DNA of 64,000 nucleotides. Origin: Oceanobacillus oncorhynchi. GTDB lineage: Bacteria; Bacillota; Bacilli; Bacillales; Amphibacillaceae. The number at the start of each line of letters is the position of its first letter. Positions within the stretch are counted from its first letter, which is position 1. The notes below the pieces were generated by a model that made no database searches, was not told the origin of the DNA, and worked only from the letters and a program-made list of their open reading frames with translations. The DNA is taken from contig NZ_CDGG01000001.1 of the NCBI RefSeq assembly GCF_000821065.1, positions 186,001-250,000 on the forward strand, written 5' to 3'. The translations under genes were made by a program, and so were the position numbers. Below, piece after piece: positions 11,413 to 26,938 of the stretch.

Positions 11413-11597
11413 TCGTTTTGAGTCCGGCGTGGATAGAGGTCTCTCGTTTTCCGGGGGGATATCGGGACAGGTTAACGAAGAAACAGTTACAGAAATGGCA
11501 CAAGAAAAAATCCCTCTTGAAAGGGGAAAAACAGGGTGCTATAATAAGGAAAGAAGCTCATTAAAGTAATTGGAAAGCTTTTTATTTAGATAGATGG

Positions 11598-11611
11598 TTA
11601 AAACGCTTTCG
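11598..11611 (-). promoter_or_regulatory. cre-like CcpA site upstream of the mannose PTS
   Basis: Read on the minus strand, CGAAAGCGTTTTAA matches the cre consensus TGWAANCGNTNWCA at 12 of 14 positions. It lies 250 bases before the EIIAB gene. Confidence 0.45.
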
Positions 11612-11772
11612 AACATAATATAAATTAAATAAACACTTGCAATTATATTTTACGTGTTACTGATTCGATCAGGCATGAGTGAAAGGTAGTTATTAAAGCG
11701 AAGAGGAAGGACATCTCTGTCTTTTTATCTTCATTTAACCTGCTTTTTTCTCATGTCTTTTTTCATTGGTGC

Positions 11773-11786
11773 TGAAAGCGTTTTAC
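11773..11786 (+). promoter_or_regulatory. Second cre-like CcpA site upstream of the mannose PTS
   Basis: TGAAAGCGTTTTAC keeps the whole TGAAANCGNTNW core and misses only the last two bases of the cre consensus. It is 79 bases before the EIIAB start, well placed for catabolite control. No convincing sigma-54 -24/-12 element and no LevR-type activator gene were found nearby. Confidence 0.5.
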
Positions 11787-11864
11787 AAAGCTTGCAAACA
11801 TACTGCTTTAAGAGCTTGCCATATCTATTGAAGCCTTAACAAACATAAAAAGGAGGTTAAAAAG

Positions 11865-12839
11865 ATGGTAGGAATTATCATTGCCAGCCATGGTGAATTT
11901 GCGACAGGTATCTTGCAGTCTGGAGCGATGATCTTTGGAGAGCAAGAGAATGTCAAGGCTGTTACGTTGATGCCGAGTGAAGGTCCGGATGACGTAAGAG
12001 CAAAAATGGAAGAGGCCATTGCTTCTTTCGACAATCAAGATGAAGTATTATTCTTAGTCGATCTTTGGGGTGGAACCCCCTTTAATCAGGCAAGCAGCTT
12101 GATGGAGGGACATGAAGATACATGGGCTATCGTTGCTGGGTTGAACTTAGCGATGGTAATCGAATCGTATGCATCGCGCTTTTCTATGAACACAGCGCAT
12201 GAAATAGCGGCTCATATTATTGATACGGCGAAGGATGCAGTGAAGGTAAAACCGGAGGAATTAGAGCCGGAAGAATCTGCTGAATCTGCTTCTGCGTCTT
12301 CTGGAGCCAGTGCAGGAGCTCCCGGGTCATTTGACTACGTGTTAGCGCGGATTGACTCCCGCCTATTGCACGGACAGGTGGCAACGTCGTGGACAAGAAG
12401 TACATCGCCCACGCGTATCATCGTTGTATCAGACACGGTAGCAAAGGATGAATTACGTAAAAAATTGATTCAACAGGCTGCCCCGTCAGGTATCAAGGCA
12501 CATACGGTTCCTATTCAGAAAATGGTGGAGCTCGCAAAGGATGATCAGCATTTTGGCGGACAGCGCGCATTGCTTCTATTCGAGAATCCTCAGGATGTAT
12601 TGAGAGCTATTGAAGGCGGCGTTCCGCTGGATACGATCAATGTCGGATCGATGTCCCATTCTACTGGGAAAGTGCAGCCAAATAAGGTACTTGCCTTTGA
12701 CCAGAATGATATCGATACGTTCAAAAAGTTGAAGGAATTAGGCGTGGATTTTGATGTGCGTAAGGTTCCAGCTGATTCATATGGGAATATGGATGAGATT
12801 TTGAGAAGAGCGCAAGCAGAATTAGACAGACAGAAATAA
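11865..12839 (+). CDS. manX: PTS EIIAB component, mannose family
   Basis: 324 residues. The EIIA domain (1-125) carries His9 in IIIASHGEF as phosphorylation site and the [12 protein letters not shown] motif. An Ala/Ser/Glu-rich flexible linker (about 130-155) leads to an EIIB domain whose site is His169 in [15 protein letters not shown]. It relays phosphate from HPr to sugar bound by the IIC-IID complex. AGGAGG lies at ideal distance from the ATG. Substrate is probably mannose or glucose, but fructose, sorbose or amino sugars cannot be excluded. Confidence 0.93.
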
Positions 12840-12875
12840 TCCTAAATCATTAGAGGAAAAGGAGGATTAATCATC

Positions 12876-13676
12876 ATGGATTTAACTATTATTCAAATAA
12901 TATTAATTATTATTATTGCATTTATAGCTGGTATTGAAGGAATCCTGGACGAATTCCAGTTTCACCAGCCCATTGTTGCTTGTACGTTAATCGGTCTGGT
13001 TAGCGGAGAATTGACCGCATGTCTTATTTTAGGCGGCTCGCTGCAGTTTATTGCTTTAGGCTGGGCAAATATTGGTGCTGCTGTTGCACCGGATACAGCT
13101 TTGGCCTCTGTTGCTTCGGCAATTATTCTTGTTTTAAGCGGACAGGGGACGGCGGGGGTAAACTCAGCTATGGCGATTGCTATTCCTTTAGCAGTTGCAG
13201 GTCTGTTATTAACTATCATCGTTCGGACGCTTGCTACAGGGATTGTCCATTTAATGGATGCAGCGGCCAAGGACGGCAACATTCGAAAAATTGAAATGTG
13301 GCATGTGGTTGCTATCTGCATGCAGGGTTTACGTATTGCTATTCCGGCTGCATTGATTGTAGCTATCGGTGCAACACCGGTTAGAGAGATGCTCCAATCG
13401 ATGCCTGACTGGTTAACAGAAGGCCTGGCAGTCGGAGGCGGAATGGTAGTAGCGGTTGGTTATGCCATGGTTATCAACATGATGGCTACCAAAGAAGTAT
13501 GGCCATTCTTTGCCATTGGTTTCGTACTGGCGACGATTCCGGATATTACGCTTGTAGGCTTTGGCGGTATTGGTGTAGCACTTGCACTTATTTATATAGC
13601 ACTTACGAAACAAGGCGGCTCCGGTGGCGGCGGAAACACTGGTGATCCTTTAGGCGATATTATTGATGACTATTAA
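12876..13676 (+). CDS. manY: PTS EIIC component, mannose family
   Basis: A 266-residue membrane protein with an extended run of hydrophobic helices and the mannose-IIC N-terminal signature (AGIEGILDEFQFHQPIVACTL). The C-terminus is Gly-rich and acidic. It pairs with the IID protein encoded next to form the translocation channel. It is preceded by AAAGGAGG, 37 bases after the EIIAB stop. Confidence 0.92.
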   Translation: MDLTIIQIILIIIIAFIAGIEGILDEFQFHQPIVACTLIGLVSGELTACLILGGSLQFIALGWANIGAAVAPDTALASVASAIILVLSGQGTAGVNSAMAIAIPLAVAGLLLTIIVRTLATGIVHLMDAAAKDGNIRKIEMWHVVAICMQGLRIAIPAALIVAIGATPVREMLQSMPDWLTEGLAVGGGMVVAVGYAMVINMMATKEVWPFFAIGFVLATIPDITLVGFGGIGVALALIYIALTKQGGSGGGGNTGDPLGDIIDDY

Positions 13677-13694
13677 AAAAAGGAGGACATGAAG

Positions 13695-14609
13695 ATGGCA
13701 CAAGAAGAAATCAAATTATCAAAAAGAGATCGTATTGCTATTTGGTGGCGCTCCACATTCCTTCAAGGTTCTTGGAACTACGAACGGATGCAAAATGGCG
13801 GCTGGGCATTTTCCATGATTCCCGCAATCAAAAGATTATATCAGACAAAAGAAGATCGTGCGGCTGCACTACAGCGTCACTTAGAGTTCTTTAATACACA
13901 CCCTTATGTTGCTTCTCCGATTATTGGTGTAACGTTGGCACTTGAAGAAGAACGTGCAAACGGTGCTCCGGTGGACAATAAGGCGATTCAAGGGGTTAAG
14001 GTCGGAATGATGGGGCCGTTAGCAGGTATCGGGGATCCTATTTTCTGGTTTACCCTCAGACCAATTCTTGGTTCATTGGCGGCTTCACTTGCAGTGACTG
14101 GTAATATCCTTGGACCAATCATTTTCTTCGTAGCATGGAACTTGATCCGGATGGGATTCCTATGGTATTCACAGGAACTTGGTTACAAAGCAGGGGAAAA
14201 AATCACTGATGACTTATCTGGCGGATTGCTCCAGGATATTACCAAGGGCGCATCAATACTCGGTATGTTTATTCTCGGGGCATTGGTAAACCGATGGGTG
14301 GATGTCTCCTTTACCCCGACCGTCGCAGAAGTTCAGCTCGATGAAGGTGCTTATATTGAATGGGATAGCTTGCCTGGAGGAGCGGAAGGAATTCAGTCCG
14401 CATTGTTACAACAGGAAGAGGGCAGGTCATTGACCCAAACAGATGTCACGACGCTGCAGGATAACTTAGACAGTTTGATTCCTGGTCTTGCCGGGCTGCT
14501 ACTGACACTCCTTTGTATGTGGCTGCTCCGGAAGAAAGTGTCACCAATCACGATGATTCTTGGATTGTTCGTAGTTGGTGTTGTATTCCATGCCATCAAC
14601 CTGATGTAA
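13695..14609 (+). CDS. manZ: PTS EIID component, mannose family
   Basis: 304 residues. The first half is cytoplasmic and amphipathic, with WWRSTFLQGSWNYERMQ and the KVGMMGPLAGIGDPIFW signature of mannose-IID proteins; one or more hydrophobic helices end the protein (LLLTLLCMWLL and MILGLFVVGVVF). Of two nearby ATGs, 13695 lies eight bases from AGGAGG (13681-13686) while 13689 lies two bases away, so 13695 is used. It is the last gene of the PTS operon. Confidence 0.92.
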   Translation: MAQEEIKLSKRDRIAIWWRSTFLQGSWNYERMQNGGWAFSMIPAIKRLYQTKEDRAAALQRHLEFFNTHPYVASPIIGVTLALEEERANGAPVDNKAIQGVKVGMMGPLAGIGDPIFWFTLRPILGSLAASLAVTGNILGPIIFFVAWNLIRMGFLWYSQELGYKAGEKITDDLSGGLLQDITKGASILGMFILGALVNRWVDVSFTPTVAEVQLDEGAYIEWDSLPGGAEGIQSALLQQEEGRSLTQTDVTTLQDNLDSLIPGLAGLLLTLLCMWLLRKKVSPITMILGLFVVGVVFHAINLM

Positions 14610-14777: not shown

Positions 14778-15794
14778 ATGCTTACTATTGGTTATATTGG
14801 AAACGGGAAAAGCACGAACAGGTATCATCTGCCGTTCGTAATGCAAAGAGAACATATCAAAGTGAAAACCATTTACCGGAGAACCCCTGCGAACGATAGC
14901 TGGGATAAACATGCAGGAGTGCATTACACTTCAGATTTAGAGGAATTGTTACGTGATGAGGACATTCAGCTTATTGTGATTTGTACAAAACATGACAGCC
15001 ATTATGAATATGCAAAACAAGTATTAGAGCATAATAAGCACTGTTTAGTCGAAAAGCCTTTCATGGAAACCTCGGAGCAGGCAAAAGAAATTTTTGCATT
15101 GGCAAAGGAAAAAGAGTTGATTGTCCAGGCCTATCAAAACAGACGATTTGATAGTGATTTTTTAACTGTTCAAAAAGTGATAGAAGAAGGAAAGCTTGGG
15201 GACTTGCTGGAAGTGGAGATGCATTATGACTATTATCGTCCCGAAGTGCCGAAGTCTGCCGATACGTTTGACCCTAATGCATCATTTCTATATGGACATG
15301 GCTGCCATACCTTGGATCAGGTAATCAGCTATTTTGGCAAACCGGATAATATCCATTACGATGTGAAGCAATTATTAGGACAAGGAAGAATGAACGATTA
15401 TTTCGATTTAGATTTATATTATGGCGAATTAAAAGTATCGGTGAAATCCAGCTATTTCAGACTGAAAGAAAGACCAAGCTTTGTTGTGCATGGTAAAAAA
15501 GGATGCTTTATCAAAGAAACGAAAGATCGTCAGGAAGAGCATCTAAAGTTATTCTATATGCCGGATAACGAGGATTTCGGCATCGATACGCTGCGTCATT
15601 ATGGCGTACTGACGTATGTGGATGAAGAAGGAACGGTACATGAGGAAACAATGAAATCGGTAGATGGCGATTATGGGCGTGTATATGACGATTTATATGA
15701 AGCGGTTATCAATGGGCAAGATAAAACGATTACGGATGAGCAGACGTTGCTGCAGATGGAAATGTTGGAGACGGGGATTCAACATTTAAGGTAG
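14778..15794 (+). CDS. Gfo/Idh/MocA-family NAD(P)-dependent oxidoreductase
   Basis: 338 residues. The N-terminal Rossmann fold begins IGYIGNGKSTNRYHLPF, with a slightly unusual nucleotide loop. The family signature VEKPFMETSEQA (catalytic lysine of the EKP motif) is at about residue 98, and the C-terminal domain contains the conserved histidine of GHGCHTLDQVISYFG. Such enzymes oxidise or reduce sugars and inositols; the substrate cannot be named. It has its own AGGAGG site and is flanked by terminators, so it is transcribed alone. Confidence 0.88.
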   Translation: MLTIGYIGNGKSTNRYHLPFVMQREHIKVKTIYRRTPANDSWDKHAGVHYTSDLEELLRDEDIQLIVICTKHDSHYEYAKQVLEHNKHCLVEKPFMETSEQAKEIFALAKEKELIVQAYQNRRFDSDFLTVQKVIEEGKLGDLLEVEMHYDYYRPEVPKSADTFDPNASFLYGHGCHTLDQVISYFGKPDNIHYDVKQLLGQGRMNDYFDLDLYYGELKVSVKSSYFRLKERPSFVVHGKKGCFIKETKDRQEEHLKLFYMPDNEDFGIDTLRHYGVLTYVDEEGTVHEETMKSVDGDYGRVYDDLYEAVINGQDKTITDEQTLLQMEMLETGIQHLR

Positions 15795-15821
15795 CTGATG
15801 CTTTTGCATAAGTGCATAGAA

Positions 15822-15860
15822 CTTGGATGAACAAGCTGTCTTGTTTATCCAAGTTTTTTT
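15822..15860 (+). terminator. Intrinsic terminator of the oxidoreductase gene
   Basis: CTTGGATGAACAAG (15822-15835) pairs with CTTGTTTATCCAAG (15840-15853) around a four-base loop, followed by seven T. Confidence 0.92.
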
Positions 15861-16295
15861 GGTGTGGAGAGCAAATAGCAGTATTTTGTCTACATTAACC
15901 CCCAATAATAATTGTTCTCCCTTTTGACTTTTGATTTACTCCATTAGTATTATCCTCTCTTCTGAATCATGTCTAAAAGGTATCTTTGCTTTGTGAATAA
16001 TTTGTATCAAATTCCACTACATCACTTATATACTACACTATTTTTATAAAATAATAATGATGATTCTCTTATCTATATTAGTACGACAAACATGGCAATC
16101 AAGGAAGTAAATATTCCTTCAGAACGGATTGGAGGTAAGTATTTGAACGAAGGGCAGGAAAAAATGTTGAACCTTTTGGGTTAATAGGTTTTATATAGTT
16201 ATAATTTTTTGCACTGCTACAGGGAACCAAGTTTGTCTGTATGGCACAGATTTATAAATCTATAATGAAAGCAGGGATGGAAAAGGGTGAAAAGC
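15861..16295. other. Intergenic region before the PRD activator gene
   Basis: AT-rich. It must contain the promoter of the downstream regulator and operon, but no clear operator, cre site or ribonucleic antiterminator was recognised. A 30-codon ATG frame (16092-16184) has no ribosome site. Confidence 0.4.
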
Positions 16296-18152
16296 ATGTT
16301 AACAAATAGACAAAAAGAAATTGCATCTATGTTGTTGAATTGTGAAAAGCCGCTACTTTATCGAGAATTAGCTGATAAATGTTCTGTATCACTTAGAACC
16401 ATTAAATCAGATATGAAGGAAGTAAAGTATTGGTTTAAAAAGCACCAAGTAGATTTACAGTCACAACCGGTTAAAGGCCTTTGGATTACCAATTTAAATG
16501 AAAAAGAGAAAATGAAAATCTATCACAAACTCTTATTAGAGACAGTAGATGAAGAAATTTGGGGCGAAGAGGGACGCATACGCCGTATTGTCCTATTGCT
16601 AAGTTTACATCCCAGCAAGTATATTACGGCGGAATTCTTAGCTGATCAGTTACTTGTAAGCAAGCAAACGATTTATAAGGATATGAAAAAAGTTGAAAAA
16701 CACTTGGCTGAAAATAATATAACGTTAAAGATGCTTCCTAGAAAAGGATACACGATTGCAGGAGAAGAAGTTGATATACGGCAGCACGCGGAATATTTAC
16801 TAACATACAAAATTGTCATTGAGGAATCGTATAGACCAGAAATATATTTGAAATTTAAAGAAGAACTCACTTCCTTTTCACCAGATATGAAAAAGGTGGT
16901 TCTACTAATAGATGAAATACTGATGAAATCTATTAAACAATCATTGGTTGAATACCATCCTGCTTCTGTTAAGATTTTCACCCTATTTACAAGGTTAGTG
17001 ATTTCGGTTTGTCGAGTAACGAAAGAAAATGCTATTCAATTAGGAAGAAATAATGATGAGATAGATATGTCCATGTCAACATTCGCAATGTTCGTCTATG
17101 CTGTTGCAAATGATGTTTTTGAACATTTCAACCTAGAGATAACTAATGATGAATTCATTTACATTTATAGAAATGCCTTATTAAATAATCACAACGAAGA
17201 CCTGATCGAAATGACGAATAATATTATTCATTATGTGAGCAGAAGACTTTCCATTCCTTTTTATAACGATAGTACGTTACAAACAAACCTATTGTCCCAT
17301 TTCTCTAATAAATTTACTGAAGAAAATGCCATTTTATTAGAGAATAACCCGTTTATGGAAGATCTTAAAACAAAGCATGATTATCTTTATCATCCTGTTA
17401 AAACAGCGTGTGAAAAATATATCGAATCACATAATTTTACGTCTGAAATGATTAGTTCATTTGTTACATTGCATTTTCTTGTATCAATGGAAACAACTTT
17501 TGAAAACAAGAAACCTTTAAAAGCACTCTATGTTTGTGCAAGCGGCAGAGGAGTGGCACGTGTTATAAAAAATCGTGTGGAAAAAGAAGTGCCGCGGATT
17601 AGAATCATTCAATATTGTGGCTTAGATGATTTAGAAGAGATTATGGAAAAGGATACGTTTGACATCATCATTAGTGTATTTCCAATTGAAACCGCTATAC
17701 CAACGATATGGGTAGACCCGGTACCAAGCGAAAGTAATATTAAAGAGTTAAAGAACAAAGTAAGTGAATTAACTGGTGATAATCAAGTAATTGCACAGCA
17801 GATAATCAACAAAGGTGAAAGCAATATCGATGATCCAGAAGAATACTCCAGAGCAGTTATATTGGAAGCAATGGAACTATATTTGGGAATTAAGCAAGCT
17901 TTTAAAGGCAGAATCAAGCATAAAATGGAGGATGCTTTTCTAATGCATGTTTTCCTCATGGTTCATCGTATTAAATTCAGAATGGAATATGATCACCTTG
18001 TAAATACATCTTTTATAGAAACAGAAGATTATCGGAAAGTAGATGAAGTTTTTAAAAAACAAGGTCTGCAGGCCAATGCAGATGAGAAAAAAGCGATCCT
18101 ATTCTATATTGAAAAGGAGGAAGCAAGCTGTGGGAAAGGTTACCATTATTAA
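16296..18152 (+). CDS. PRD-containing (BglG/MtlR-type) transcriptional activator
   Basis: 618 residues: two N-terminal HTH domains (about 1-65 and 95-160, SLRTIKSDMKEV and VSKQTIYKDMKKV), two PRDs (about 200-300 and 305-402, with candidate phospho-histidines near 222, 335 and 393), an EIIB-like domain with Cys414 in LYVCASGRGVARVI, and a roughly 100-residue tail that shows no clear EIIA histidine motif. Such proteins activate a linked operon according to PTS phosphorylation. ATG 16296 lies six bases after AAAGGGTG; GTG 16287 is the alternative. Its 3' end overlaps the amidohydrolase gene by 23 bases, so it heads the operon. Confidence 0.88.
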   Translation: MLTNRQKEIASMLLNCEKPLLYRELADKCSVSLRTIKSDMKEVKYWFKKHQVDLQSQPVKGLWITNLNEKEKMKIYHKLLLETVDEEIWGEEGRIRRIVLLLSLHPSKYITAEFLADQLLVSKQTIYKDMKKVEKHLAENNITLKMLPRKGYTIAGEEVDIRQHAEYLLTYKIVIEESYRPEIYLKFKEELTSFSPDMKKVVLLIDEILMKSIKQSLVEYHPASVKIFTLFTRLVISVCRVTKENAIQLGRNNDEIDMSMSTFAMFVYAVANDVFEHFNLEITNDEFIYIYRNALLNNHNEDLIEMTNNIIHYVSRRLSIPFYNDSTLQTNLLSHFSNKFTEENAILLENNPFMEDLKTKHDYLYHPVKTACEKYIESHNFTSEMISSFVTLHFLVSMETTFENKKPLKALYVCASGRGVARVIKNRVEKEVPRIRIIQYCGLDDLEEIMEKDTFDIIISVFPIETAIPTIWVDPVPSESNIKELKNKVSELTGDNQVIAQQIINKGESNIDDPEEYSRAVILEAMELYLGIKQAFKGRIKHKMEDAFLMHVFLMVHRIKFRMEYDHLVNTSFIETEDYRKVDEVFKKQGLQANADEKKAILFYIEKEEASCGKGYHY

Positions 18153-19254
18153 AAATGGAATTGTATTTAACGCTGTTAATAAAGCGTTTACTAAAAAAGA
18201 TGTCTATGTGAAAGATGATGAAATAATAGCTGAAGAAGATATTGAGGAAACAGATTTGCTGACAGAATGGGATGCAAAGGGAAGCTATGTTGCCCCGGGG
18301 TTTATAGATATGCATGTACACGTATTTGAAAATTTTGCTCAAATTGGGATAAATGCTGACAAAATCGGTATTAATCAGGGGGTTACAACAGTTGTTGATG
18401 CAGGAAGTACAGGGTATAAAGATTATGCTCAATTTAAGGATAAAATTATCAATCAACATACGACAGAAATATTGTCGTTATTAAATGTATCCGCCACGGG
18501 CTTAGTAGAGGGATTGGATGAATTGTCTGCTCCTGAAAAATTAATGAGTGAACGTGCATGGGAAACGATAAAAGCTTCAGAACTGGCTATTGTTGGGTTG
18601 AAAGCCAGAATGAGTCAATCGGTGGTCGGGAATCAGGGTATTCGCCCTTTGGAACATGCCCGCAAATTAGCTGATCAGACGGATACGCCCATCATGGTGC
18701 ATATTGGCTCACCTCCTCCGCCATTAAATGAAATTCTGCCTTTATTAAAAAATGGTGATATTGTAACGCATGCTTTTCATGGCAAAAAAGGCGGGATTCT
18801 TGATGAAGATGGAGCTTTAATACCTGAAGCACATGAGGCGCTAGAGCGGGGAGTTAAATTTGACGTTGGTCATGGAACATCAAGCTTTTCATATCAAACA
18901 ATTAAACGATTTAAAGAGAATTATAGTTATCCATTTACGATCAGTACAGATGTTTATGAAAAGAATTTTGAACAGCCAGTTGGCAGTTTAATGGATACCA
19001 TATCGAAATTATTAGCAGTAGGATATGACTTAGAAGATTTAATCGAATCCGTTACAATTCTTCCGGCTAGAACGCTGTCTTTAATGAATTATGGATCATT
19101 GGAACCTGGAAAGAAAGCAGATATTACAATGTTTCATATTGAGAAAAAGGATAGAGAACTAATCGATTCACATGGTGAAGTGATGAAAGTAAATCAACGT
19201 TTAATTCCACAAACAACATGGAAAAACGGAAAGATTGTATATCAAAGGGGTTAA
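18130..19254 (+). CDS. Amidohydrolase/deacetylase-family metallohydrolase (EF_0837 type)
   Basis: 374 residues with the amidohydrolase TIM-barrel pattern: His62 and His64 in FIDMHVHVFE, further metal ligands in MVHIGSPP and THAFHG, and a C-terminal composite beta domain (LEPGKKADITMF). It fits the subfamily named after E. faecalis EF_0837, found beside DgaE-like lyases. The predicted role is removal of an N-acyl (probably acetyl) group from an amino-sugar acid before deamination; this is inferred from context. The start is GTG 18130, nine bases after AAAGGAGG, inside the end of the regulator gene. Confidence 0.85.
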   Translation: MGKVTIIKNGIVFNAVNKAFTKKDVYVKDDEIIAEEDIEETDLLTEWDAKGSYVAPGFIDMHVHVFENFAQIGINADKIGINQGVTTVVDAGSTGYKDYAQFKDKIINQHTTEILSLLNVSATGLVEGLDELSAPEKLMSERAWETIKASELAIVGLKARMSQSVVGNQGIRPLEHARKLADQTDTPIMVHIGSPPPPLNEILPLLKNGDIVTHAFHGKKGGILDEDGALIPEAHEALERGVKFDVGHGTSSFSYQTIKRFKENYSYPFTISTDVYEKNFEQPVGSLMDTISKLLAVGYDLEDLIESVTILPARTLSLMNYGSLEPGKKADITMFHIEKKDRELIDSHGEVMKVNQRLIPQTTWKNGKIVYQRG

Positions 19255-19258
19255 GAAT

Positions 19259-19597
19259 GTGGAAAAAAAAGATCTAACTAACTATTTCATGAATAGTCAA
19301 GATCCAGATGTTTGTGAAAGTATTTACAATGATGCAGTGAACTATATAGATAGTAATGGATATGAAATAAAAGATGATCAAAGAGAAGCCTTATTAAATC
19401 ACATATCTGAAATGGTGAAAAGAAATCAAAGAAAAGAAATAATGCAAGTAGAAGATAAAAAGTTATTTGAAGAAGTTTCGCAAGAGTCCATCAAACAAGC
19501 TAGAGAATTAGTAAAACAATTAGAACATATTTCAGATGATGAAACGTATTTATTATCGATTCATTTTGAAGTAGTTAAATATAATCAATCAAAATAA
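19259..19597 (+). CDS. Small stand-alone PRD protein (EF_0829 type)
   Basis: A soluble protein of 112 residues with the PRD fold pattern and a conserved histidine in YLLSIHFEVVKYN near the C-terminus. It has no HTH, so it is not a DNA-binding regulator. It fits the EF_0829 PRD family that occurs only in this gene cluster. It may be a phosphorylatable partner or sensor of the transporter (inference). It starts at GTG 19259, seven bases after AAAGGGG and four bases after the amidohydrolase stop. Confidence 0.8.
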   Translation: MEKKDLTNYFMNSQDPDVCESIYNDAVNYIDSNGYEIKDDQREALLNHISEMVKRNQRKEIMQVEDKKLFEEVSQESIKQARELVKQLEHISDDETYLLSIHFEVVKYNQSK

Positions 19598-19609
19598 GGA
19601 GTGAGTTAA

Positions 19610-19966
19610 ATGGTAAAAGTAGTTATTGCAGATAGACTTGGAAAAGGGCAAAACGTGGGAAAAGGTGTAGAAATTGCTGGAGGAGAAGCTATTGTAGTCC
19701 CGGGAATTGGAGCGGACATGAAGCTCGGCGATGAAATGAATAAAGTAGATGCGGATTTGGGAATTTCATTTTGCGGCAGTGGTGGAGCAGGAGCAATTAC
19801 AGCACAAACGAAATATGGATATAAAGCAAGACATGGCATGCGTTCTATTGAAGAAGGAGTAACTGCCATTCGTGAAGGCTATAAAGTATTAGGGTTCGGG
19901 TTCATGGATGTAGAAGACCTGGGCAAACGTATCGTGGAAGAATACAAGAAAATACAAGGGGAATGA
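19610..19966 (+). CDS. Glycine-rich SFCGS-family protein (EF_0830 type)
   Basis: A cytoplasmic protein of 118 residues, rich in glycine. Cys55 lies in the name-giving motif GISFCGSGGAGA, followed by KARHGMRSIEEG. The Cys in a glycine/serine loop after a beta strand resembles the phosphocysteine loop of PTS EIIB domains, but no biochemical role is established for the family. AAGGAG precedes the ATG, and the stop overlaps the next start region. Together with DUF4310-4312 it probably forms the soluble part of a transporter (inference). Confidence 0.85.
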   Translation: MVKVVIADRLGKGQNVGKGVEIAGGEAIVVPGIGADMKLGDEMNKVDADLGISFCGSGGAGAITAQTKYGYKARHGMRSIEEGVTAIREGYKVLGFGFMDVEDLGKRIVEEYKKIQGE

Positions 19967-19971
19967 ATCAC

Positions 19972-20325
19972 ATGATTGAAAACCAACATGTAACAATAAC
20001 CGTTTCTGGAAAGGGAAGTACACAAGATGAGGCAGTTAGTCGTGCTTTAAGTAAAATTCAGAAACAGATATTTTCTGAGATTAATCAGCTTGTTATTCGT
20101 GCGGAACCAGAAAACATAGAAGAAGTGGAGGCAACTATGGAAGAATATACAGAACGTTTTTTCTTCTTTTTTATGCCGCGTAAAAAATTGAGTTGTCATG
20201 TGACGTTAAAAGTAGATGTAAACTTAAAAACAATCGATTCTGCCAAATTTAATTGGCAGAAAAAAGGTAGTCACCATCCATTAAGGAGGGGTATACGTGG
20301 GCGGAATCGTAGTTATTCTAATTAA
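19972..20325 (+). CDS. DUF4312 family protein (EF_0831 type)
   Basis: About 117 residues, soluble alpha/beta with a basic C-terminus and a striking FFFFFM run near residue 60. It has no recognised catalytic motif; the family is known only by conservation next to SFCGS, DUF4311 and DUF4310 genes. ATG 19972 suits the AAGGGG site; ATG 19963, which overlaps the previous stop as ATGA, is the alternative. Its last 29 bases overlap the DUF4311 gene and contain that gene's start. Confidence 0.82.
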   Translation: MIENQHVTITVSGKGSTQDEAVSRALSKIQKQIFSEINQLVIRAEPENIEEVEATMEEYTERFFFFFMPRKKLSCHVTLKVDVNLKTIDSAKFNWQKKGSHHPLRRGIRGRNRSYSN

Positions 20326-21076
20326 ATCATTAATTATTGGAGCGATTGTCGGTTTTGGCGTAGGTGCTGGTGCAGCAAGGATGTTCCATGCACCGAAGTC
20401 TCAATCAATGGGAGCATTCAGAACGATTGGCGAGATGAATGCCTGTGCAGGTGACCGTGCATCCCATTTTTCATTTGGACTGGGCTTCTTCTTTAACGCT
20501 TGGGCATCAGCTGTTGGAGCTGGCGCGCTTACGCAGGATGTAGATCATAGAATTATTCCCAATTGGTCTGTCGCCGTGCTTTTAAGAAAAGGAAAAACAA
20601 TAGAAGAAACCATGCATAACCCTTTCAAAATGAGTATAGCGGGGGCGATCGTGGGAGCAATCGTTGTTGCTTTTTTAAGTACTACAACAGCATCTATTCC
20701 GGAGGGACTTAGAAATGTTGCGCTGGAAGTATTGGCTCCAGCGGCGGATTGGCTTATTAATATGGCTATGCCGGTCATATTTTGGTTAGCTGCATTAGAT
20801 GCCGGAAAACGTTCTGGTTTTTGGGGGACGATATTTGGCGGACTAGCTCATATTATTATGGGTAATGCTGTTCCTGGTGTTGTACTAGGTATATTGGTAG
20901 GTAAGGGTGTGGATGATTCTGGATGGAATAACATCACAAAAATATTAATGACAGCTATTATTGTGCTGTTCATCTTAAGCGCCTTCTTTAGGGGAATTGA
21001 TATAGAGCTGATTGAAAGTCTCAACCTTACTGTGCCAAATTGGTTACAAGGACTTCATAATTTAATAAACCCTTAG
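20297..21076 (+). CDS. DUF4311 family membrane protein (EF_0832 type)
   Basis: 259 residues with about six hydrophobic segments. A polar loop after the first helix carries a conserved-looking NACAGDRASHFSFG (Cys and His close together). It is the presumed first membrane subunit of the cluster's transporter. It starts at GTG 20297, five bases after AAGGAGGGG (20283-20291), inside the DUF4312 frame, so translation is coupled. The family has no known function. Small size and pairing with DUF4310 recall two-subunit permeases such as mannose-family IIC/IID (analogy only). Confidence 0.85.
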   Translation: MGGIVVILIKSLIIGAIVGFGVGAGAARMFHAPKSQSMGAFRTIGEMNACAGDRASHFSFGLGFFFNAWASAVGAGALTQDVDHRIIPNWSVAVLLRKGKTIEETMHNPFKMSIAGAIVGAIVVAFLSTTTASIPEGLRNVALEVLAPAADWLINMAMPVIFWLAALDAGKRSGFWGTIFGGLAHIIMGNAVPGVVLGILVGKGVDDSGWNNITKILMTAIIVLFILSAFFRGIDIELIESLNLTVPNWLQGLHNLINP

Positions 21077-21091
21077 TGAGGAGGAAATAAA

Positions 21092-21751
21092 ATGACTGAT
21101 GGTCAACTAAGTGATGCGATGTATAAAAAGAGTTTTTGGTTTGCAGATTGGTCGTTCCCAATTTTTGTAGCACTTCTGTCATCTGGTATTTTTGCAGGTA
21201 CGCATATGTATTACGTTTATAAAGTAGGTGCTTTTAATGAAGTAGCCATTGTAGCTTTGTTAGAAGCAGGTATGCAAGGATCTGGCTATGGTGCAGCGGC
21301 AGCATTTGGAGCTAGCTTTTTATTTGCACGTATACTTGAAGGCGGTTTAGTAGGAGTACTTGATATAGGTGGTTCGATACTAACTGGTGTAGGTATCGGA
21401 ATACCAGCACTGCTTTTAGGTGCAGGAATTGTTTTACCACTAGAAAACTTTTTTGTCTCTTTAATAACGGGCTTATTAATAGGCGTGGTAATAGGCTATG
21501 TTGTTATTGGCATTAAAAAGTTTACGGTCGGAAAGGCTAATTCTACATTTGGCAGTGATGTGATGATGGGTGCAGGTAACTCGTCTGGCAGATTTTTAGG
21601 ACCGTTAATTATTATTTCTGCTGCAACAGCATCCATCCCTGTAGGCTTGGGTTCTTTACTTGGAGGAGCATTCTTTTATTTATGGAATAAACCCGTTGCG
21701 GGCGGAGCAATCTTAGGTGCTATGGCAATCGGAGCATTTTTCCCAATTTAA
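21092..21751 (+). CDS. DUF4310 family membrane protein (EF_0833 type)
   Basis: 219 residues, very hydrophobic, with about five or six membrane segments, glycine-rich helices and a short polar loop KANSTFGSDVMMGAGNSSG. It is predicted to form the membrane channel with the DUF4311 protein. The ATG follows GAGGAGG; the gap to the previous gene is 15 bases. No known transporter motif was recognised. Confidence 0.85.
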   Translation: MTDGQLSDAMYKKSFWFADWSFPIFVALLSSGIFAGTHMYYVYKVGAFNEVAIVALLEAGMQGSGYGAAAAFGASFLFARILEGGLVGVLDIGGSILTGVGIGIPALLLGAGIVLPLENFFVSLITGLLIGVVIGYVVIGIKKFTVGKANSTFGSDVMMGAGNSSGRFLGPLIIISAATASIPVGLGSLLGGAFFYLWNKPVAGGAILGAMAIGAFFPI

Positions 21752-21801
21752 AATGAATAGCAGCAAAGTATTCCAGTAGATGTTCTATGTTATTGCAACC
21801 C

Positions 21802-21838
21802 CAATCAGTGGGGGTGAAAAGAAAACCCTCACTGATTG
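21802..21838 (+). repeat. Stem-loop between transporter and enzyme genes
   Basis: CAATCAGTG (21802-21810) pairs perfectly with CACTGATTG (21830-21838), and the inner GGGG/CCC part extends the stem to about 14 bp. No long T run follows, so it is more likely an mRNA-processing or partial attenuation element within the operon than a full terminator. Confidence 0.6.
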
Positions 21839-21898
21839 AAGTTTCACTTTATAGAAACCATGTTAGATATGTAATCATAACTGAAAGGTTGATTAATT

Positions 21899-23008
21899 AT
21901 GGATAATTCACTACATGACAGATATGGATTAAAACGTGTCATAAATGCAAGTGGCAGAATGAGTATTCTTGGCGTCTCTGCACCATCTGATACAGTGATG
22001 GATGCAATGAAAACAGGCGGACAAAATTATGTGGAAATTACTGATTTAGTGGATAAGTCAGGCGAATATATTGCGGATATGCTGGATTCAGAATCTGCTC
22101 TTATTGTAAATTCAGCATCAAGTGGAATTGTTTTATCTGTCGCTGGATTGGTCACTAAAGGAAATAGAAGGTTGAGTGAAAAGATACATCAAGAAAAAAT
22201 CATGAAAAATGAGATTATCATGTTGAAAGGGCAAAATGTTCATTACGGTGCTCCAATTGAATCAATGATCTATCTTGGTGGAGGCGAGCTAGTGGAGGCA
22301 GGATATGCAAATGAAGGAAAACAAGAACATATCTCCGATGCTGTAAACGAAAATACAGCGGCTATTTTGTATGTAAAATCTCATCATGCCGTACAAAAGA
22401 ATATGATTTCTGTTGAAGAAGCTGCAGAGGTTGCTAAAGAAAAGAATATCCCGTTTATTGTTGACGCAGCAGCGGAAGAAGATTTGGGAAAATATGTGAA
22501 AATTGCTGATCTGGCAATTTACAGCGGATCGAAAGCTATTGAAGGGCCAACATCGGGTATTGTGGCAGGGAAAAAAGATTATGTAGAGTGGGTCAAAACA
22601 CAGCTTCATTATATTGGAAGAAGTATGAAGGTAGGAAAGGAATCTACATTTGGCTTACTGCAGGCATTGGATGAGTATTTTGTAAAAAAAGATAATAGTG
22701 AAGCTGAAAAGGCGAGTTTAGAAGTACTGCAATCATTAAATACAATGGAAGGTGTCACTGCAACGATCGTTCAGGACGAAGCGGGACGCTCTATCTTCAG
22801 AGCACGTATCACCATTGATGAAGCTGTTACAGCTATATCAGCTAAGGAAGTAACGAATCAACTAAAACATGGCGAAATTGCTATTTATACTCGTGATTAT
22901 GGTGTGAGACAAGGATTCTTTGATATTGATCCACGACCGTTACAAGAAAATGATAGTCAAGTTATTTATAGTCGAATCGTTGACATTCTAGGAGGAAAAG
23001 AAGTATGA
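21899..23008 (+). CDS. DgaE-like PLP-dependent ammonia-lyase
   Basis: A 369-residue fold-type-I PLP enzyme of the SelA-like/DgaE group. Lys212 in YSGSKAIEGPTSG is the Schiff-base residue, and PFIVDAAAEED contributes the ring-nitrogen aspartate. DgaE of Salmonella converts D-glucosaminate 6-phosphate to 2-keto-3-deoxygluconate 6-phosphate with release of ammonia; the same type of reaction is expected here. Its ATG comes 148 bases after the DUF4310 gene and its end overlaps the aldolase gene by four bases (ATGA). Confidence 0.87.
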   Translation: MDNSLHDRYGLKRVINASGRMSILGVSAPSDTVMDAMKTGGQNYVEITDLVDKSGEYIADMLDSESALIVNSASSGIVLSVAGLVTKGNRRLSEKIHQEKIMKNEIIMLKGQNVHYGAPIESMIYLGGGELVEAGYANEGKQEHISDAVNENTAAILYVKSHHAVQKNMISVEEAAEVAKEKNIPFIVDAAAEEDLGKYVKIADLAIYSGSKAIEGPTSGIVAGKKDYVEWVKTQLHYIGRSMKVGKESTFGLLQALDEYFVKKDNSEAEKASLEVLQSLNTMEGVTATIVQDEAGRSIFRARITIDEAVTAISAKEVTNQLKHGEIAIYTRDYGVRQGFFDIDPRPLQENDSQVIYSRIVDILGGKEV

Positions 23009-23760
23009 AGAAGATAGATAAATTTTTTTATAAGGACCGTGTTGCTTTAAACGTTCTGGCGAATAGTATTGAAAATGCAAAGGAAGTATATGAAGCAGGA
23101 GAGGGAAAGGTACTAATCGGCGTACTATCGAAGAATTATGATACGGTGGAAGAAGCAGTAAGCGCAATGGGAAAATATGATGAAGCAATCCATGGGGCTG
23201 TATCCATTGGTTTGGGTGCAGGTGATAACAGACAGGCTGCAGTGGTTGAAAATATTGTGAAATCATATGAAGGGAGTCATATTAACCAAGTGTTTCCATC
23301 TGTCGGTGCAACCAGAGCGAATCTAGGAGAGAAAGAGAGCTGGATCAATGCTTTGGTATCTCCATCAGGAAAAGTTGGTTATGTAACTATTTCAACTGGC
23401 CCGTTAAGTTCCAATGTCGGAGAACAAGCTGTTGTTCCAATAGAATCAGCTATAGCGTTAATGAAAGATATGGGAGGACATGCATTAAAATTTTTCCCTA
23501 TGAAAGGTCTCGCTCACCAAGAAGAGTTCCGTGCTGTTGCTAAAGCTTGTGCAGAAGCCGACTTTGCTTTAGAACCAACTGGCGGCATTGACTTAAATAA
23601 CTTTGAAGAGATTTTGACCATTGCTCTTGAAGCCGGAGTACCAAAAGTCATCCCTCATGTTTATTCTTCTATTATTGATAAAGAAACGGGTAAAACCAAT
23701 ATAGAAGATGTAAAAAAACTATTAGATGTTACGAAACAGCTAGTGAGTAAATATGCATAA
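23005..23760 (+). CDS. KDGP aldolase family protein (EF_0839/DgaF type)
   Basis: A 251-residue TIM-barrel protein of the EF_0839 family, the partner of DgaE-like lyases. Typical stretches are HALKFFPMKGL with the candidate Schiff-base lysine and LEPTGGIDLNNFEEI near the C-terminus. The expected reaction is cleavage of 2-keto-3-deoxy-6-phosphogluconate to pyruvate and glyceraldehyde 3-phosphate. It is the last gene of the cluster, followed by a terminator. Confidence 0.87.
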   Translation: MKKIDKFFYKDRVALNVLANSIENAKEVYEAGEGKVLIGVLSKNYDTVEEAVSAMGKYDEAIHGAVSIGLGAGDNRQAAVVENIVKSYEGSHINQVFPSVGATRANLGEKESWINALVSPSGKVGYVTISTGPLSSNVGEQAVVPIESAIALMKDMGGHALKFFPMKGLAHQEEFRAVAKACAEADFALEPTGGIDLNNFEEILTIALEAGVPKVIPHVYSSIIDKETGKTNIEDVKKLLDVTKQLVSKYA

Positions 23761-23873
23761 TGGATGGCTTGTTATGTATTGATAACGATATTGTGCGTTT
23801 AAGTTGAAAAATATCCTATCTGCTAGATTATAACTTGAGGATATATTAAATTTATTTGATTAAAATCAGGAAT

Positions 23874-23916
23874 AAAGACACCAATCTTGTTAATTTAGCA
23901 AGTCTGGTGTCTTTTT
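23874..23916. terminator. Bidirectional intrinsic terminator
   Basis: AAAGACACCA (23874-23883) pairs with TGGTGTCTTT (23905-23914), with an inner CTTG/CAAG stem and T-rich flanks on both strands. It lies between the convergent aldolase and ROK repressor genes. Confidence 0.85.
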
Positions 23917-23928
23917 ATAATTCTTTAT

Positions 23929-25053
23929 TTATTTTATTAGTTCGTGCAATTTATCCAAGGCTATGGTCAAACTTCCTAGAGAAGCTGAATCATTCGTAAC
24001 TTTTGAAAACTCCAGTTGAAAATCGATTGGTGTTACTTGTTTGATGATTTGAAGCAATTCATTTCGTTTTGAATAAACGAGATGTGACAATTCTCCTCCA
24101 AGAATAAGTTTTTCAGGATTTAATAAGCTTATAATATTACCGATTGCAAAGCCTAGGTTGTTAATAATGGCTATGAGAATTTCTTGTTGGCTGGAGGAAA
24201 GTTGATTGTAAGATTGATGTTGGATAGAATATCTTAAGTCTTCTGGAAAAGCAAGAAGAGAAGCTTTATGGTCAAGTTCTCCAAATTCTCCATATTCATT
24301 TGGGGAGGTCAGCACATCATTTGGATATTTGAAGAAGCCAATTTCACCAGCTTTAAAATTTGCTCCCGTTATTAAGTGATTATTTGCTATAATTGCTGTA
24401 CCAATACCATAACCAACATAGAGATATACAAAATTTTTGAGGTTTTGATTATGTTCGTTCCACTTTTCCAACATAGCCAAGCAATTTACATTATTGTTTA
24501 TAAATACTTCACAATTGAAATGTTTAAGAATTAAATCCTTTAAGTTAATATTATTCCAATTTAATTCAGGGGCTTCGGAAACAATTCCATTCAAACTATC
24601 GACCATTCCAGGAACAGAACATCCGATTGCTAATAATTGACCTGAATCTAAATCATTTTCTTCTATCAGGGAATAAATAAAATTTATGATAATCGTGTCG
24701 TTGAATGGTTCTTCTACTTCTAGTTTTTTGCTTAACAGGATATCACCATTTAAATCAGTCAGACATCCATTAATAACGTTTTTTTTAAAACCCAGCCCAA
24801 CTATATAGCCGTAATTTGCATTAAATCCTAGTTGAACAGCTCTTCTTCCACCTTCTTTTGTTGAATTAGCATGACCTAATTCCTGAAGTATATTTTGATC
24901 TACCAAATCGTTTACAATAGATGATACTGTAGATTTACTGAGCGATAAGCTTTTAGCGATAGCACTTCTGCTAATTGGTTGAGAATCCCGTACGGTTTTA
25001 ATAATCAACTCTCGGTTCATTTTCTTAATTGTTTCAATATGGCCTTTTATCAT
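23929..25053 (-). CDS. ROK-family transcriptional repressor (XylR/NagC type)
   Basis: 374 residues: an N-terminal winged HTH (about 10-65, SRSAIAKSLSLSKSTVSSIVNDL) joined to a ROK sugar-kinase-like domain. The sequence aligned with the kinase catalytic ENDVN loop reads INNNVN, so the catalytic Asp is Asn, consistent with a sensor that binds sugar without phosphorylating it. The zinc motif typical of many ROK proteins is absent. The start is the ATG after AGGAGG, five codons inside the longest frame. It is divergent from a ROK kinase it probably controls through the operator at 25240-25264. Confidence 0.88.
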   Translation of the reverse strand: MIKGHIETIKKMNRELIIKTVRDSQPISRSAIAKSLSLSKSTVSSIVNDLVDQNILQELGHANSTKEGGRRAVQLGFNANYGYIVGLGFKKNVINGCLTDLNGDILLSKKLEVEEPFNDTIIINFIYSLIEENDLDSGQLLAIGCSVPGMVDSLNGIVSEAPELNWNNINLKDLILKHFNCEVFINNNVNCLAMLEKWNEHNQNLKNFVYLYVGYGIGTAIIANNHLITGANFKAGEIGFFKYPNDVLTSPNEYGEFGELDHKASLLAFPEDLRYSIQHQSYNQLSSSQQEILIAIINNLGFAIGNIISLLNPEKLILGGELSHLVYSKRNELLQIIKQVTPIDFQLEFSKVTNDSASLGSLTIALDKLHELIK

Positions 25054-25287: not shown

Positions 25288-26205
25288 TTGGCACTATTTA
25301 CGACGACAGAGGAAAAAAGTTTAAATTTAGGAGTTGATATTGGCGGTACAAGTATATATCTTGTCTTAATGAATAAAAATGAAAACGTTATCTATGAAAA
25401 AAAAGTGAAAACTTCGCGTCAAATTAAGGAAATATTTAGAATTATAATCTGTTTTTTAGAAGAAGCGAATGCAGAGGTAGAACAATTAAAGTTCATCAGC
25501 TTTGGAGTCCCTGGTACTACAAATATGATGGATGGTGTTGTTATTGATGCACCAGCATTAGAATGGTCTAATCTTCCACTTAAAGAAGAAATGTCGAAAT
25601 ATTTTAATTGCCCAATATATGTAGAGAATGATGTTAACTGTGCTGCAATAGGAGAGCAGTGGAAGGGGCGAGCTATTGGATGTAAGGACTTTATATATCT
25701 TTCGATTGGCACTGGAGTTGGGAGTTCTATTTTTACAAATGGACAATTAGTACGGGGCAGTTCTTTTATGGCTGGAGAGATTGGTTACTTGCTATTTACC
25801 CCTGATGTGGAAAATAAAAAATATAATAAGACTGGACAATTTGGAATGTTGGAATCCAAGTTATCAGGAACAGCACTAGCTGAAAATGGTAATGATCCTA
25901 AACAATTATTTAAAGATTACTATGAAAATGTGGCAGAAGCAAAAGATGCTGTAAATACCTTTAAACAATTACTAGCGATAAGCATTGCCAATATAGTCAG
26001 TTTATTAAATCCGGAAAGAGTAGTAATAAGTGGTGGAGTAGCTCAATCTTTGGAGGGGCTAATCGATGATATCAATGAAATGGTGAAGGAATATACACCT
26101 ATCCCCAGTAAGATTTATTTATCTCCTCTCGGTGAAGCATCAGGGGCAATTGGAGCAGTGGCAGCAGGATTAAATAGAATTTCTGAAAAAGAATGGAGTG
26201 TATGA
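25288..26205 (+). CDS. ROK-family sugar kinase
   Basis: 305 residues: ATP-binding GVDIGGTSIYLVLM at the N-terminus, catalytic aspartate in YVENDVNCAAIGE, a phosphate loop SIGTGVGSS, and GEIGYLLF. The Cys/His zinc site of glucokinases and N-acetylmannosamine kinases is missing, replaced by a Lys/Tyr/Asn-rich loop. It starts at TTG 25288. It is clearly related to the adjacent repressor, with similar stretches such as SLLNPE and a GG-rich C-terminal helix. It probably phosphorylates an amino sugar or ketose that becomes the substrate of the next gene's product; the sugar is unknown. Confidence 0.82.
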   Translation: MALFTTTEEKSLNLGVDIGGTSIYLVLMNKNENVIYEKKVKTSRQIKEIFRIIICFLEEANAEVEQLKFISFGVPGTTNMMDGVVIDAPALEWSNLPLKEEMSKYFNCPIYVENDVNCAAIGEQWKGRAIGCKDFIYLSIGTGVGSSIFTNGQLVRGSSFMAGEIGYLLFTPDVENKKYNKTGQFGMLESKLSGTALAENGNDPKQLFKDYYENVAEAKDAVNTFKQLLAISIANIVSLLNPERVVISGGVAQSLEGLIDDINEMVKEYTPIPSKIYLSPLGEASGAIGAVAAGLNRISEKEWSV

Positions 26206-26206
26206 A

Positions 26207-26938
26207 ATGGCAAATATGACCATTGTTAATGATTATGAAGAATTATCAAAATTGACAGCTGAGAGATTGATTTCTTTTATTCAAGAAAAGAATGATGCTG
26301 TCGTTTGTTTAGCAGGTGGACAAACGCCATTGGGATTTTTTAAAGAATTTATTAAACAAGTAAATGAGTTTTCTGTGCTTTTGGACAAAGTAACATTCGT
26401 TGGATTAGATGAATGGGTTGGGGTAAATGGAGATACAGTAGGAAGTTGCCGTCATACATTGAATGAATATTTCTTCTATCCATTAGAGATAAAAGAAAAT
26501 CAGATTTTATTTTTTGATGGTACAGTAACACCGATTGAGAAGGAGAAAGAAAGAGTAAGAAAAGAACTTAATGCATTGAACGGTATTGATTTCATGGTAT
26601 TAGGTATTGGGAGAAATGGGCATTTAGGTTTCAATGAGCCGCATGTCTCTATGGAAGAAGAAGTTCAAATTGTTCCTTTAGAACAAAGTACAATTGAAGA
26701 TTCAGGAGGAAAAATTGAATATGATGGTAAGCTTTCAAGTGGAATAACCTTAGGAATGAGGGCTATTACTTCTGCAGATCAGTTAATAGCTATTGCCAGT
26801 GGAGAAAAAAAGGCTAGTATAATTAAAAAAGTAATAGAAGGAAATGTAACGGATGGTGTTCCGGCAAGTTTATTACAAAAATCTAAAAAAATGGAATTTA
26901 TTTTAGATAAATCTGCCAGCCAGGAATTAAATCAATAA
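26207..26938 (+). CDS. NagB-like glucosamine-6-phosphate isomerase/deaminase family protein
   Basis: 243 residues of the NagB/6-phosphogluconolactonase fold. Motifs: CLAGGQTPLGFF (phosphate loop), FVGLDEWVG with the catalytic Asp, and GIGRNGHLGFNEP with the catalytic His and Glu. ATG 26207 is used, one base after the kinase stop, with GGAGTG upstream. It deaminates and isomerises an amino-sugar 6-phosphate to a ketose phosphate, though relatives act on other sugar phosphates. An IS4-family element sits 28 bases after the stop. Confidence 0.85.
   Translation: MANMTIVNDYEELSKLTAERLISFIQEKNDAVVCLAGGQTPLGFFKEFIKQVNEFSVLLDKVTFVGLDEWVGVNGDTVGSCRHTLNEYFFYPLEIKENQILFFDGTVTPIEKEKERVRKELNALNGIDFMVLGIGRNGHLGFNEPHVSMEEEVQIVPLEQSTIEDSGGKIEYDGKLSSGITLGMRAITSADQLIAIASGEKKASIIKKVIEGNVTDGVPASLLQKSKKMEFILDKSASQELNQ

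Follow-up and report, generated by a model that had tools for sequence, protein, structure and literature searches.

A nine-gene cluster of Oceanobacillus oncorhynchi as a candidate phosphotransferase-linked uptake and catabolic system for an amino-sugar acid

Analysis of a 64,000-nucleotide stretch of the Oceanobacillus oncorhynchi genome (RefSeq assembly GCF_000821065.1, contig NZ_CDGG01000001.1, positions 186,001 to 250,000; hereafter the window) revealed at 16296-23760 of the plus strand nine co-directional open reading frames (ORFs), overlapping or tightly packed save for one 147-nt gap before dgaE, that constitute a genuine uptake and catabolic system of unassigned kind linked to the phosphotransferase system (PTS). 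The best explanation, to which we assign a probability of about 0.53, is an operon for an amino-sugar acid, with a PTS-linked permease, uptake that most likely phosphorylates C6 via Enzyme I (EI) and HPr, and subsequent breakdown through an amidohydrolase, DgaE, and DgaF. The strongest new results were HPr and EI genes beside related clusters in Paenibacillus and the kinship of the Gly-rich SFCGS protein with YhfU. An earlier note, made from the sequence alone, had described nine tightly packed genes of named families and the same set in Enterococcus faecalis (EF_0829-EF_0839), and both points were confirmed by the ORFs and by Pfam and NCBIfam models applied at curated cut-offs. By these matches the set is the one already catalogued as EF_0829-EF_0839/AHA_3910-3917 (TIGR03577-TIGR03583), NCBIfam hypothetical equivalogs without assigned function, six of the seven TIGR models being over cut-off and TIGR03583 not. 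A full-text literature search, with most subscription journals beyond its reach, found no functional paper on DUF4310-4312, SFCGS, EF_08xx, YhfT/YhfU, or cog3964.

We infer the following route, in which phosphorylation during uptake is the least secure step. The proteins DUF4311 and DUF4310 would form the membrane part of an uncharacterized PTS-linked permease with DUF4312 and the Cys-loop SFCGS protein as its cytosolic partners, and a small single-PRD protein would be a phosphorylatable module coupling permease and PTS to the Mga/PRD regulator. The substrate, at best guess N-acetyl-D-glucosaminate or D-glucosaminate, would enter phosphorylated at C6 with the phosphate supplied by EI and HPr. 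The amidohydrolase would then strip the N-acyl group, DgaE would eliminate ammonia to give 2-keto-3-deoxygluconate 6-phosphate (KDGP), and DgaF would convert KDGP to pyruvate and glyceraldehyde-3-phosphate. The small PRD, SFCGS, DUF4312, DUF4311, and DUF4310 genes are referred to below as the module.

The link of the module to the PTS is real. Gene neighborhoods were compared in 80 loci picked by DUF4311, the best 80 of at least 504 confirmed stretches (596 candidates) from a profile scan of species genomes in which distant members are under-sampled; ORF labels in the gene-order table were assigned mechanically. In the Paenibacillus loci a co-directional HPr-family gene was found immediately upstream of the regulator or of EI in 10/10 cases, with the EI gene placed between HPr and regulator in 7/10, and at L048, L068, and L069 the HPr gene ended 20-71 bases from the regulator. 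At L048 the HPr gene was present beside the module although the three enzymes were absent from the flanks examined. Five Paenibacillus HPr proteins were scanned and scored over the HPr family model, not over the housekeeping HPr equivalogs, and therefore look like dedicated paralogues; a ptsHI pair near the module at L085, whose HPr was over the equivalog, is probably the housekeeping one. Across all loci HPr adjoined the module in 11/80 and EI in 8/80, and the motifs GIHxRPA of HPr (11/11) and GGxTSHxA of EI (8/8), which we take to be the active-site patterns, were kept throughout. EI was also present in 39/40 module genomes, and in one phylum sample it occurred in 118/299 genomes compared to 6/6 with the module and 6/6 with YhfT over cut-off (G142, below it, was left out), the source genome belonging to both sixes. 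This enrichment gave a Fisher p of 0.0035, or 0.0088 without the source genome, with kinship ignored. The HPr and EI genes bear out the proposed PTS link, strengthen both the explanation by phosphorylating uptake and the broader reading of a PTS-permease class hitherto unrecognized, and weaken the rival of a permease that does not phosphorylate.

The second new result concerns the SFCGS protein, whose Cys55 was kept in 85/85 alignment rows and which is related over its full length to YhfU (DUF2620). The hhalign comparison of the two gave E 9.5e-7 over 114 columns; after the alignments were trimmed, the E value was 4.4e-5 and the score 32.5, the best of 60 column shuffles reaching 19.4 (0/60 equal). 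The YhfU of the source genome matched PF14272 at 1.4e-5 with 25.6 bits against a gathering threshold of 27.3, and another YhfU merely at 0.077. A weaker relationship to RpiB was suggested by hhalign (E 0.0025, score 23.9, shuffle maximum 18.9, 0/60 column shuffles as good). When 47 SFCGS proteins were compared with Pfam at E <= 1, DUF2620 was matched weakly in 22 (best 0.0068) and LacAB_rpiB PF02502 in 21 (best 1.9e-4), counts that are noisy because the implausible Cecropin family was matched in 19 of the 47 (best 0.013). The CGSG loop had prompted an assignment of SFCGS as a PTS IIB, which was rejected: neither hhalign nor Pfam supported it, and YhfU and RpiB came up instead. Alignment to two single IIB sequences of the window gave no match, a weak negative with single sequences, and PDB sequence comparison of SFCGS and DUF4312 returned nothing credible. 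In DUF4312 the residues P49, E64, F66, and R73 were invariant (48 rows).

The module behaves as one co-evolving unit apart from the enzymes, as had been proposed for its DUF-type proteins. This conclusion rests on its collinearity, on separate co-evolution, and on its presence without the enzymes. DUF4310 was found in 80 of the 80 loci, DUF4312 in 79, SFCGS in 78, and a separate small PRD in 77, compared to 75 for the amidohydrolase, 75 for DgaE, and 70 for DgaF. The order PRD-SFCGS-4312-4311-4310 was collinear in 75 of the 77 loci having all five (exceptions L025 and L089); among special cases the PRD is fused in L024, L062 and L067 lie at contig ends, and L081 has a deletion. The regulator and module occurred without the three enzymes in the flanks examined at L024, L027, L028, and L048 (4/80). 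Distance correlations, raw coefficients from 35 thinned loci taken without significance test, were 0.45-0.77 within the module block and 0.71-0.85 within the amidohydrolase/DgaE/DgaF block, compared to 0.24-0.53 across the two. Mean identity across loci was highest for SFCGS, DUF4311, and DUF4310 (70-73%), intermediate for the enzymes (45-53%), and lowest for the small PRD and DUF4312 (33-38%). The cluster order recurred in most of the 80 loci, with the exact order found here (amidohydrolase second) in 23. Module hosts among these best 80 included Bacillus, Virgibacillus, Paenibacillus, Listeria, Enterococcus, Lactococcus, lactobacilli, and Thermoanaerobacter as well as proteobacteria such as Providencia, Budvicia, Xenorhabdus, Chromobacterium, and others. 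The module was over cut-off in 7/398 genomes of an even phylum sample; among the matches there, L008 was left out as a DUF421-like false match judged from its ORF, and L009 as overlapping L007. A second SFCGS-4312-4311-4310 copy with an amidohydrolase adjoins a full cluster at L078 (1823-5528).

The enzymes of the cluster are consistent with a substrate phosphorylated at C6. DgaE scored 526.8 bits against the TIGR01437 cut-off of 385.3 and was identical to PDB 7lc0 at 156 of 358 aligned residues (43.6%), and it belongs to the D-glucosaminate-6-phosphate ammonia-lyase (DGL) family, catalytic and phosphate residues included. It keeps H162, H163, the active-site Lys, R301, R332, and R346; R301 was Arg in 79/79 rows, and R332 and R346 in 78 and one gapped row. 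According to the accessible part of the structural study, the three arginines equivalent to R301, R332, and R346 form the phosphate-binding cluster of Salmonella DGL as modeled by docking, and the active-site Lys is numbered 217, compared to 213 counted in the PDB sequence (PMC9529869). The strict equivalog NF047797 remained below cut-off (400 of 600 bits), so family membership leaves the exact substrate unproven. The conserved phosphate-cluster arginines support the claim that the enzymes need a 6-phosphorylated substrate. Phosphorylating uptake is favored by these arginines, the HPr and EI neighborhood, the predicted nature of DgaF as a KDGP aldolase, and the occurrence of PfkB-type genes in few loci, and it leads, unproven, over the plain-permease reading.

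Several observations weigh against phosphorylating uptake. Homologous EIIA, EIIB, EIIC, and EIID domains, by which Enzymes II are recognized, were not found in the module: Pfam matches of DUF4310, DUF4311, DUF4312, and SFCGS up to E 10 contained no PTS family, and neither did those of the 47 SFCGS proteins, taken to E 1. AlphaFold2 models of DUF4311 (pLDDT 84, pTM 0.67) and DUF4310 (pLDDT 74.5, pTM 0.57) were all-helical, and Foldseek against the PDB returned none at E <= 0.001, the best being E 0.94 for DUF4311 and E 1.5 for DUF4310; the queries were single chains of a probable complex at moderate model confidence, with which no fold is excluded with certainty. Neither protein matched the fold of a solved transporter at that threshold, which fits the earlier note, and a BFVD search with DUF4311 gave nothing at E <= 0.001. 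In DUF4311 the residues R28, E46, D53, H57, D81, H84, R85, N190, K203, and R232 were kept in 87/87 rows. Furthermore, the genome G450 (locus L055) has the module with its His and Cys kept but no EI, HPr, or phosphoenolpyruvate-utilizer match, which weakens the interpretation of the earlier note; the assembly is fragmented, the rest of its contigs are similar in composition to the one with the module, and EI is missing in 8/18 genomes of the same family, G450 included. PfkB-type genes were identified in 5/80 loci (L051, L063, L068, L069, and L081), so that the absence of a sugar-acid kinase, stated in the earlier note, is not general, and L068 and L069 have such a gene as well as HPr. The dedicated HPr and EI could serve the PRD regulator alone, in L024 the small PRD is fused to the regulator as its C-terminal domain, and the DGL carboxylate residue R226 is Lys in this DgaE.

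The rival that survives best, although it seems on the whole unlikely, is a non-phosphorylating permease in which SFCGS/YhfU is an accessory RpiB-like protein that binds ligand or regulates, EI, HPr, and the small PRD control the regulator only, and the sugar acid is phosphorylated by an intracellular kinase usually encoded elsewhere. It would draw on the G450 genome, with an intact module and EI and HPr undetected, on the L024 fusion, and on the PfkB-type genes, of which those scanned for families (L051, L068, and L069) were PfkB by Pfam or had 2-keto-3-deoxygluconate (KDG) kinases as their nearest NCBIfam models, below cut-off; for L063 and L081 the assignment came from clustering. A precedent is the Pseudoalteromonas route for N-acetyl-D-glucosaminate (GlcNAc1A), which in the accessible part of its description relies on an SSS symporter and on a KDG kinase that acts late (PMC9537276). 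On the other side, neighbor clustering over 4 kb either side of the labeled genes, with example sequences inspected for the 25 largest families, recognized PfkB as the sole sugar-kinase family among these, and the DgaE phosphate arginines are present in every ungapped row. The L051 and L081 kinases moreover sit with damaged modules: in these Lactococcus loci DUF4312 is split (L051, 9578-9942) or the small PRD, SFCGS, and half of DUF4312 are lost (L081, 8436-11537) while the kinase, a lactose-type EIIC, and the enzymes are retained, and a kinase there may thus go with module loss. The Paenibacillus EI beside HPr also seems more than a regulator alone would need. Even if the module is a plain permease, a role would thereby be assigned to five protein families that occur in at least 504 confirmed genome stretches.

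In the small PRD protein H56 was conserved in 78/78 rows and H110 in 77/78, the exception being the row of Escherichia coli YhfY; the L024 fusion to the regulator suggests signaling as a better fit than phosphate carriage. The small PRD and YhfY are certain to be related as PRDs at the level of sequence, a closer kinship between them being no more than possible. Their hhalign comparison, run without the E. coli YhfY row in the PRD alignment, gave a score of 49.7 (E 1.5e-8), compared to 29.8, 27.9, and 16.4 for three profiles built on PRD regions of the regulator. TIGR03582 matched 3/7 YhfY proteins, all below cut-off, with GlcT-type PRDs scoring better in two of these three, and by NCBIfam most YhfY were closer to GlcT-type PRDs than to EF_0829.

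The yhf-type relatives extend this comparison. Like the cluster, the E. coli yhf operon and its relatives have a stand-alone PRD, a Cys-loop protein related to SFCGS, and then a membrane protein. YhfT was over cut-off in 6/299 phylum-sample genomes, the source genome among them, and in 6/6 of these operons PRD, YhfU, and YhfT were adjacent in that order, followed by other enzymes, whereas in E. coli yhfY stands apart from yhfU, with three enzyme genes in between. In contrast to the cluster, the yhf operons lack DUF4312 and carry other enzymes, and YhfT has no similarity to DUF4311 or DUF4310; the idea of YhfT as a DUF4311-DUF4310 fusion was rejected for want of an hhalign signal. The source genome itself holds such an operon (L146, 7319-14049) with PRD, YhfU, YhfT, Php, YhfS, YhfW, and YhfX.

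It is conceivable, and put forward as a tentative reading, that the module and perhaps also E. coli YhfY-YhfU-YhfT represent an unrecognized class of PTS-dependent permeases, with an RpiB-like Cys-loop protein in place of EIIB, a stand-alone PRD linking the permease to the regulator and the PTS, dedicated HPr and EI in some lineages, membrane folds unlike those of solved transporters, and phosphorylation of sugar acids during uptake without a known Enzyme II. If uptake does phosphorylate the substrate, group translocation, which to our knowledge has so far been known through PTS families only, would have a further, new origin in evolution. Since the Paenibacillus operons encode an HPr and EI of their own, the coupling can be tested directly there, and through the kinship with YhfU the problem extends in part to E. 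coli K-12.

The amidohydrolase, DgaE, and DgaF together suit an N-acylated 2-amino sugar acid, to judge from their families. The amidohydrolase was over cut-off for PF01979 and NF006689 and below it for TIGR03583, showed by eye a conserved HxH, Lys, His, His, Asp pattern, and had as its closest PDB sequences 2ics, 8wzy, 2ogj, and 8je0. A different substrate, another 2-amino sugar acid or a glycoside, with the amidohydrolase acting as an esterase or another N-acyl enzyme, is compatible with either transport reading and is regarded as rather improbable. It gains from the strict DgaE equivalog being below cut-off, from 2ogj, presumably a member of the group that contains acetyl-mandelate esterases, and from neighboring genes: a lactose/cellobiose-type EIIC lies near the cluster at L019, L038, L051, L053, L063, and L081 (6/80), with MupG-like 6-phospho-N-acetylmuramidase genes at these loci save L038 (5/80), family scans of such neighbors covering two MupG-like and one EIIC member. 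The strong scores of the DgaE-family and DgaF models speak against it.

N-acetyl-D-glucosaminate is a C1-oxidized product of chitin-cleaving lytic polysaccharide monooxygenases (LPMO), and another pathway that handles it has been described, as far as the accessible parts of the reports go (PMC9537276; PMC12017989). LPMO_10 was identified in 17/40 module genomes, source genome included, and was absent in 23/40, a point for another substrate and the reason why an LPMO origin was rejected as a general source of the substrate. Against another substrate, it occurred in 8/20 Bacilli-type module genomes (assigned from organism names) compared to 19/200 of the class sample, with a Fisher p of 0.0007, or 0.0023 without the source genome, kinship being ignored. 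An N-acetylated substrate, as suggested in the earlier note, is supported by the amidohydrolase and this modest enrichment. In Aeromonas, an LPMO, KdgK, and KdgA were reported with no close OngB/OngC in the accessible part of the study, which left other deacetylases possible (PMC11653859); NCBIfam names, model names only, place the present gene set in Aeromonas hydrophila.

Comparison with known pathways revealed partial overlaps. The Salmonella D-glucosaminate pathway (DgaABCD mannose-family PTS, DgaE, and DgaF) has DgaE and DgaF in common with the cluster, which lacks a DgaABCD homologue and has five other proteins in their place, as judged against the available part of the Salmonella study (PMC9529869). 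The Pseudoalteromonas ong GlcNAc1A pathway, as far as the available parts of its descriptions show, likewise proceeds from an N-acetyl amino-sugar acid by deacetylation and deamination to KDGP as end product (PMC9537276; PMC12017989); unlike the cluster, it is described there with an SSS symporter, a D-aminoacylase-type deacetylase (subtype V), unphosphorylated intermediates, and a late KdgK.

The weakest rival, SFCGS as an ordinary RpiB-type sugar-acid isomerase or epimerase with DUF4310-4312 alone transporting, is improbable: the PF02502 matches of 21/47 members at E <= 1 and the RpiB alignment (hhalign E 0.0025, 0/60 shuffles) favor it, but the covariation of SFCGS was stronger with the membrane proteins (rho 0.64 and 0.68) than with the enzymes (0.39), its relative YhfU is found alongside YhfT in operons whose enzymes differ, and the conversion from DgaE to DgaF requires no isomerization.

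Table 1. Genes and intergenic hairpin of the O. oncorhynchi cluster, in window coordinates
Feature	Position	Strand	Assigned by
Regulator: HTH_11, Mga-type HTH, PRD, probable EIIB-like stretch, C-terminal PRD-like stretch	16296..18152	+	Pfam
Amidohydrolase/deacetylase, EF_0837 type	18130..19254	+	PF01979, NF006689 over cut-off
Small single-PRD protein, EF_0829 type	19259..19597	+	TIGR03582 over cut-off
Gly-rich SFCGS protein, EF_0830 type, YhfU/RpiB-like	19610..19966	+	PF14272, TIGR03577 over cut-off
DUF4312 protein, EF_0831 type, probable small soluble partner	19963..20325	+	PF14189, TIGR03578 over cut-off
DUF4311 membrane protein, EF_0832 type	20297..21076	+	PF14188, TIGR03580 over cut-off
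DUF4310 membrane protein, EF_0833 type	21092..21751	+	PF14187, TIGR03579 over cut-off
Intergenic gap with 14-bp hairpin, between transporter genes and enzyme genes	21752..21898	+	RNA fold z-score
DgaE-family pyridoxal phosphate ammonia-lyase	21899..23008	+	TIGR01437 over cut-off
DgaF-type KDGP aldolase	23005..23760	+	PF07071, NF047796, TIGR03581 over cut-off

The coordinates in Table 1 include two probable GTG starts, chosen since ribosome-binding sites judged by eye fit them: 18130 for the amidohydrolase, whose mechanical ORF starts at 18043, and 19259 for the small PRD, whose mechanical ORF starts at TTG 19235. In the regulator HTH_11, Mga, and PRD were over cut-off and the AcpB/EbpR/MafR models below it; the EIIB-like stretch (about residues 414-480) and the C-terminal PRD-like stretch were assigned by eye only. 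The hairpin in the gap before dgaE had a fold z-score of -4.6, with 0/200 shuffles equally stable, and may set the ratio of transporter to enzyme output, and an Rfam scan of the gap (21752-21898) matched no family. No cre-like sites were found within 15700-24100.

Upstream of the cluster the window carries a complete mannose-family PTS (11865-14609), which with DUF956 makes up the gene group 11038-14609. It was rejected as the transporter of the cluster, being a separate gene group, and no mannose-PTS family was recognized among the 25 largest neighbor families. Downstream, a ROK kinase gene (25288-26205) is accompanied by a glucosamine-6-phosphate deaminase-like gene (together 25288-26938), and a ROK-family gene on the opposite strand adjoins them. 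A HAD-family gene (13296-13955 in L015, where the member was family-scanned) recurs near the cluster in seven Bacillus-type loci.

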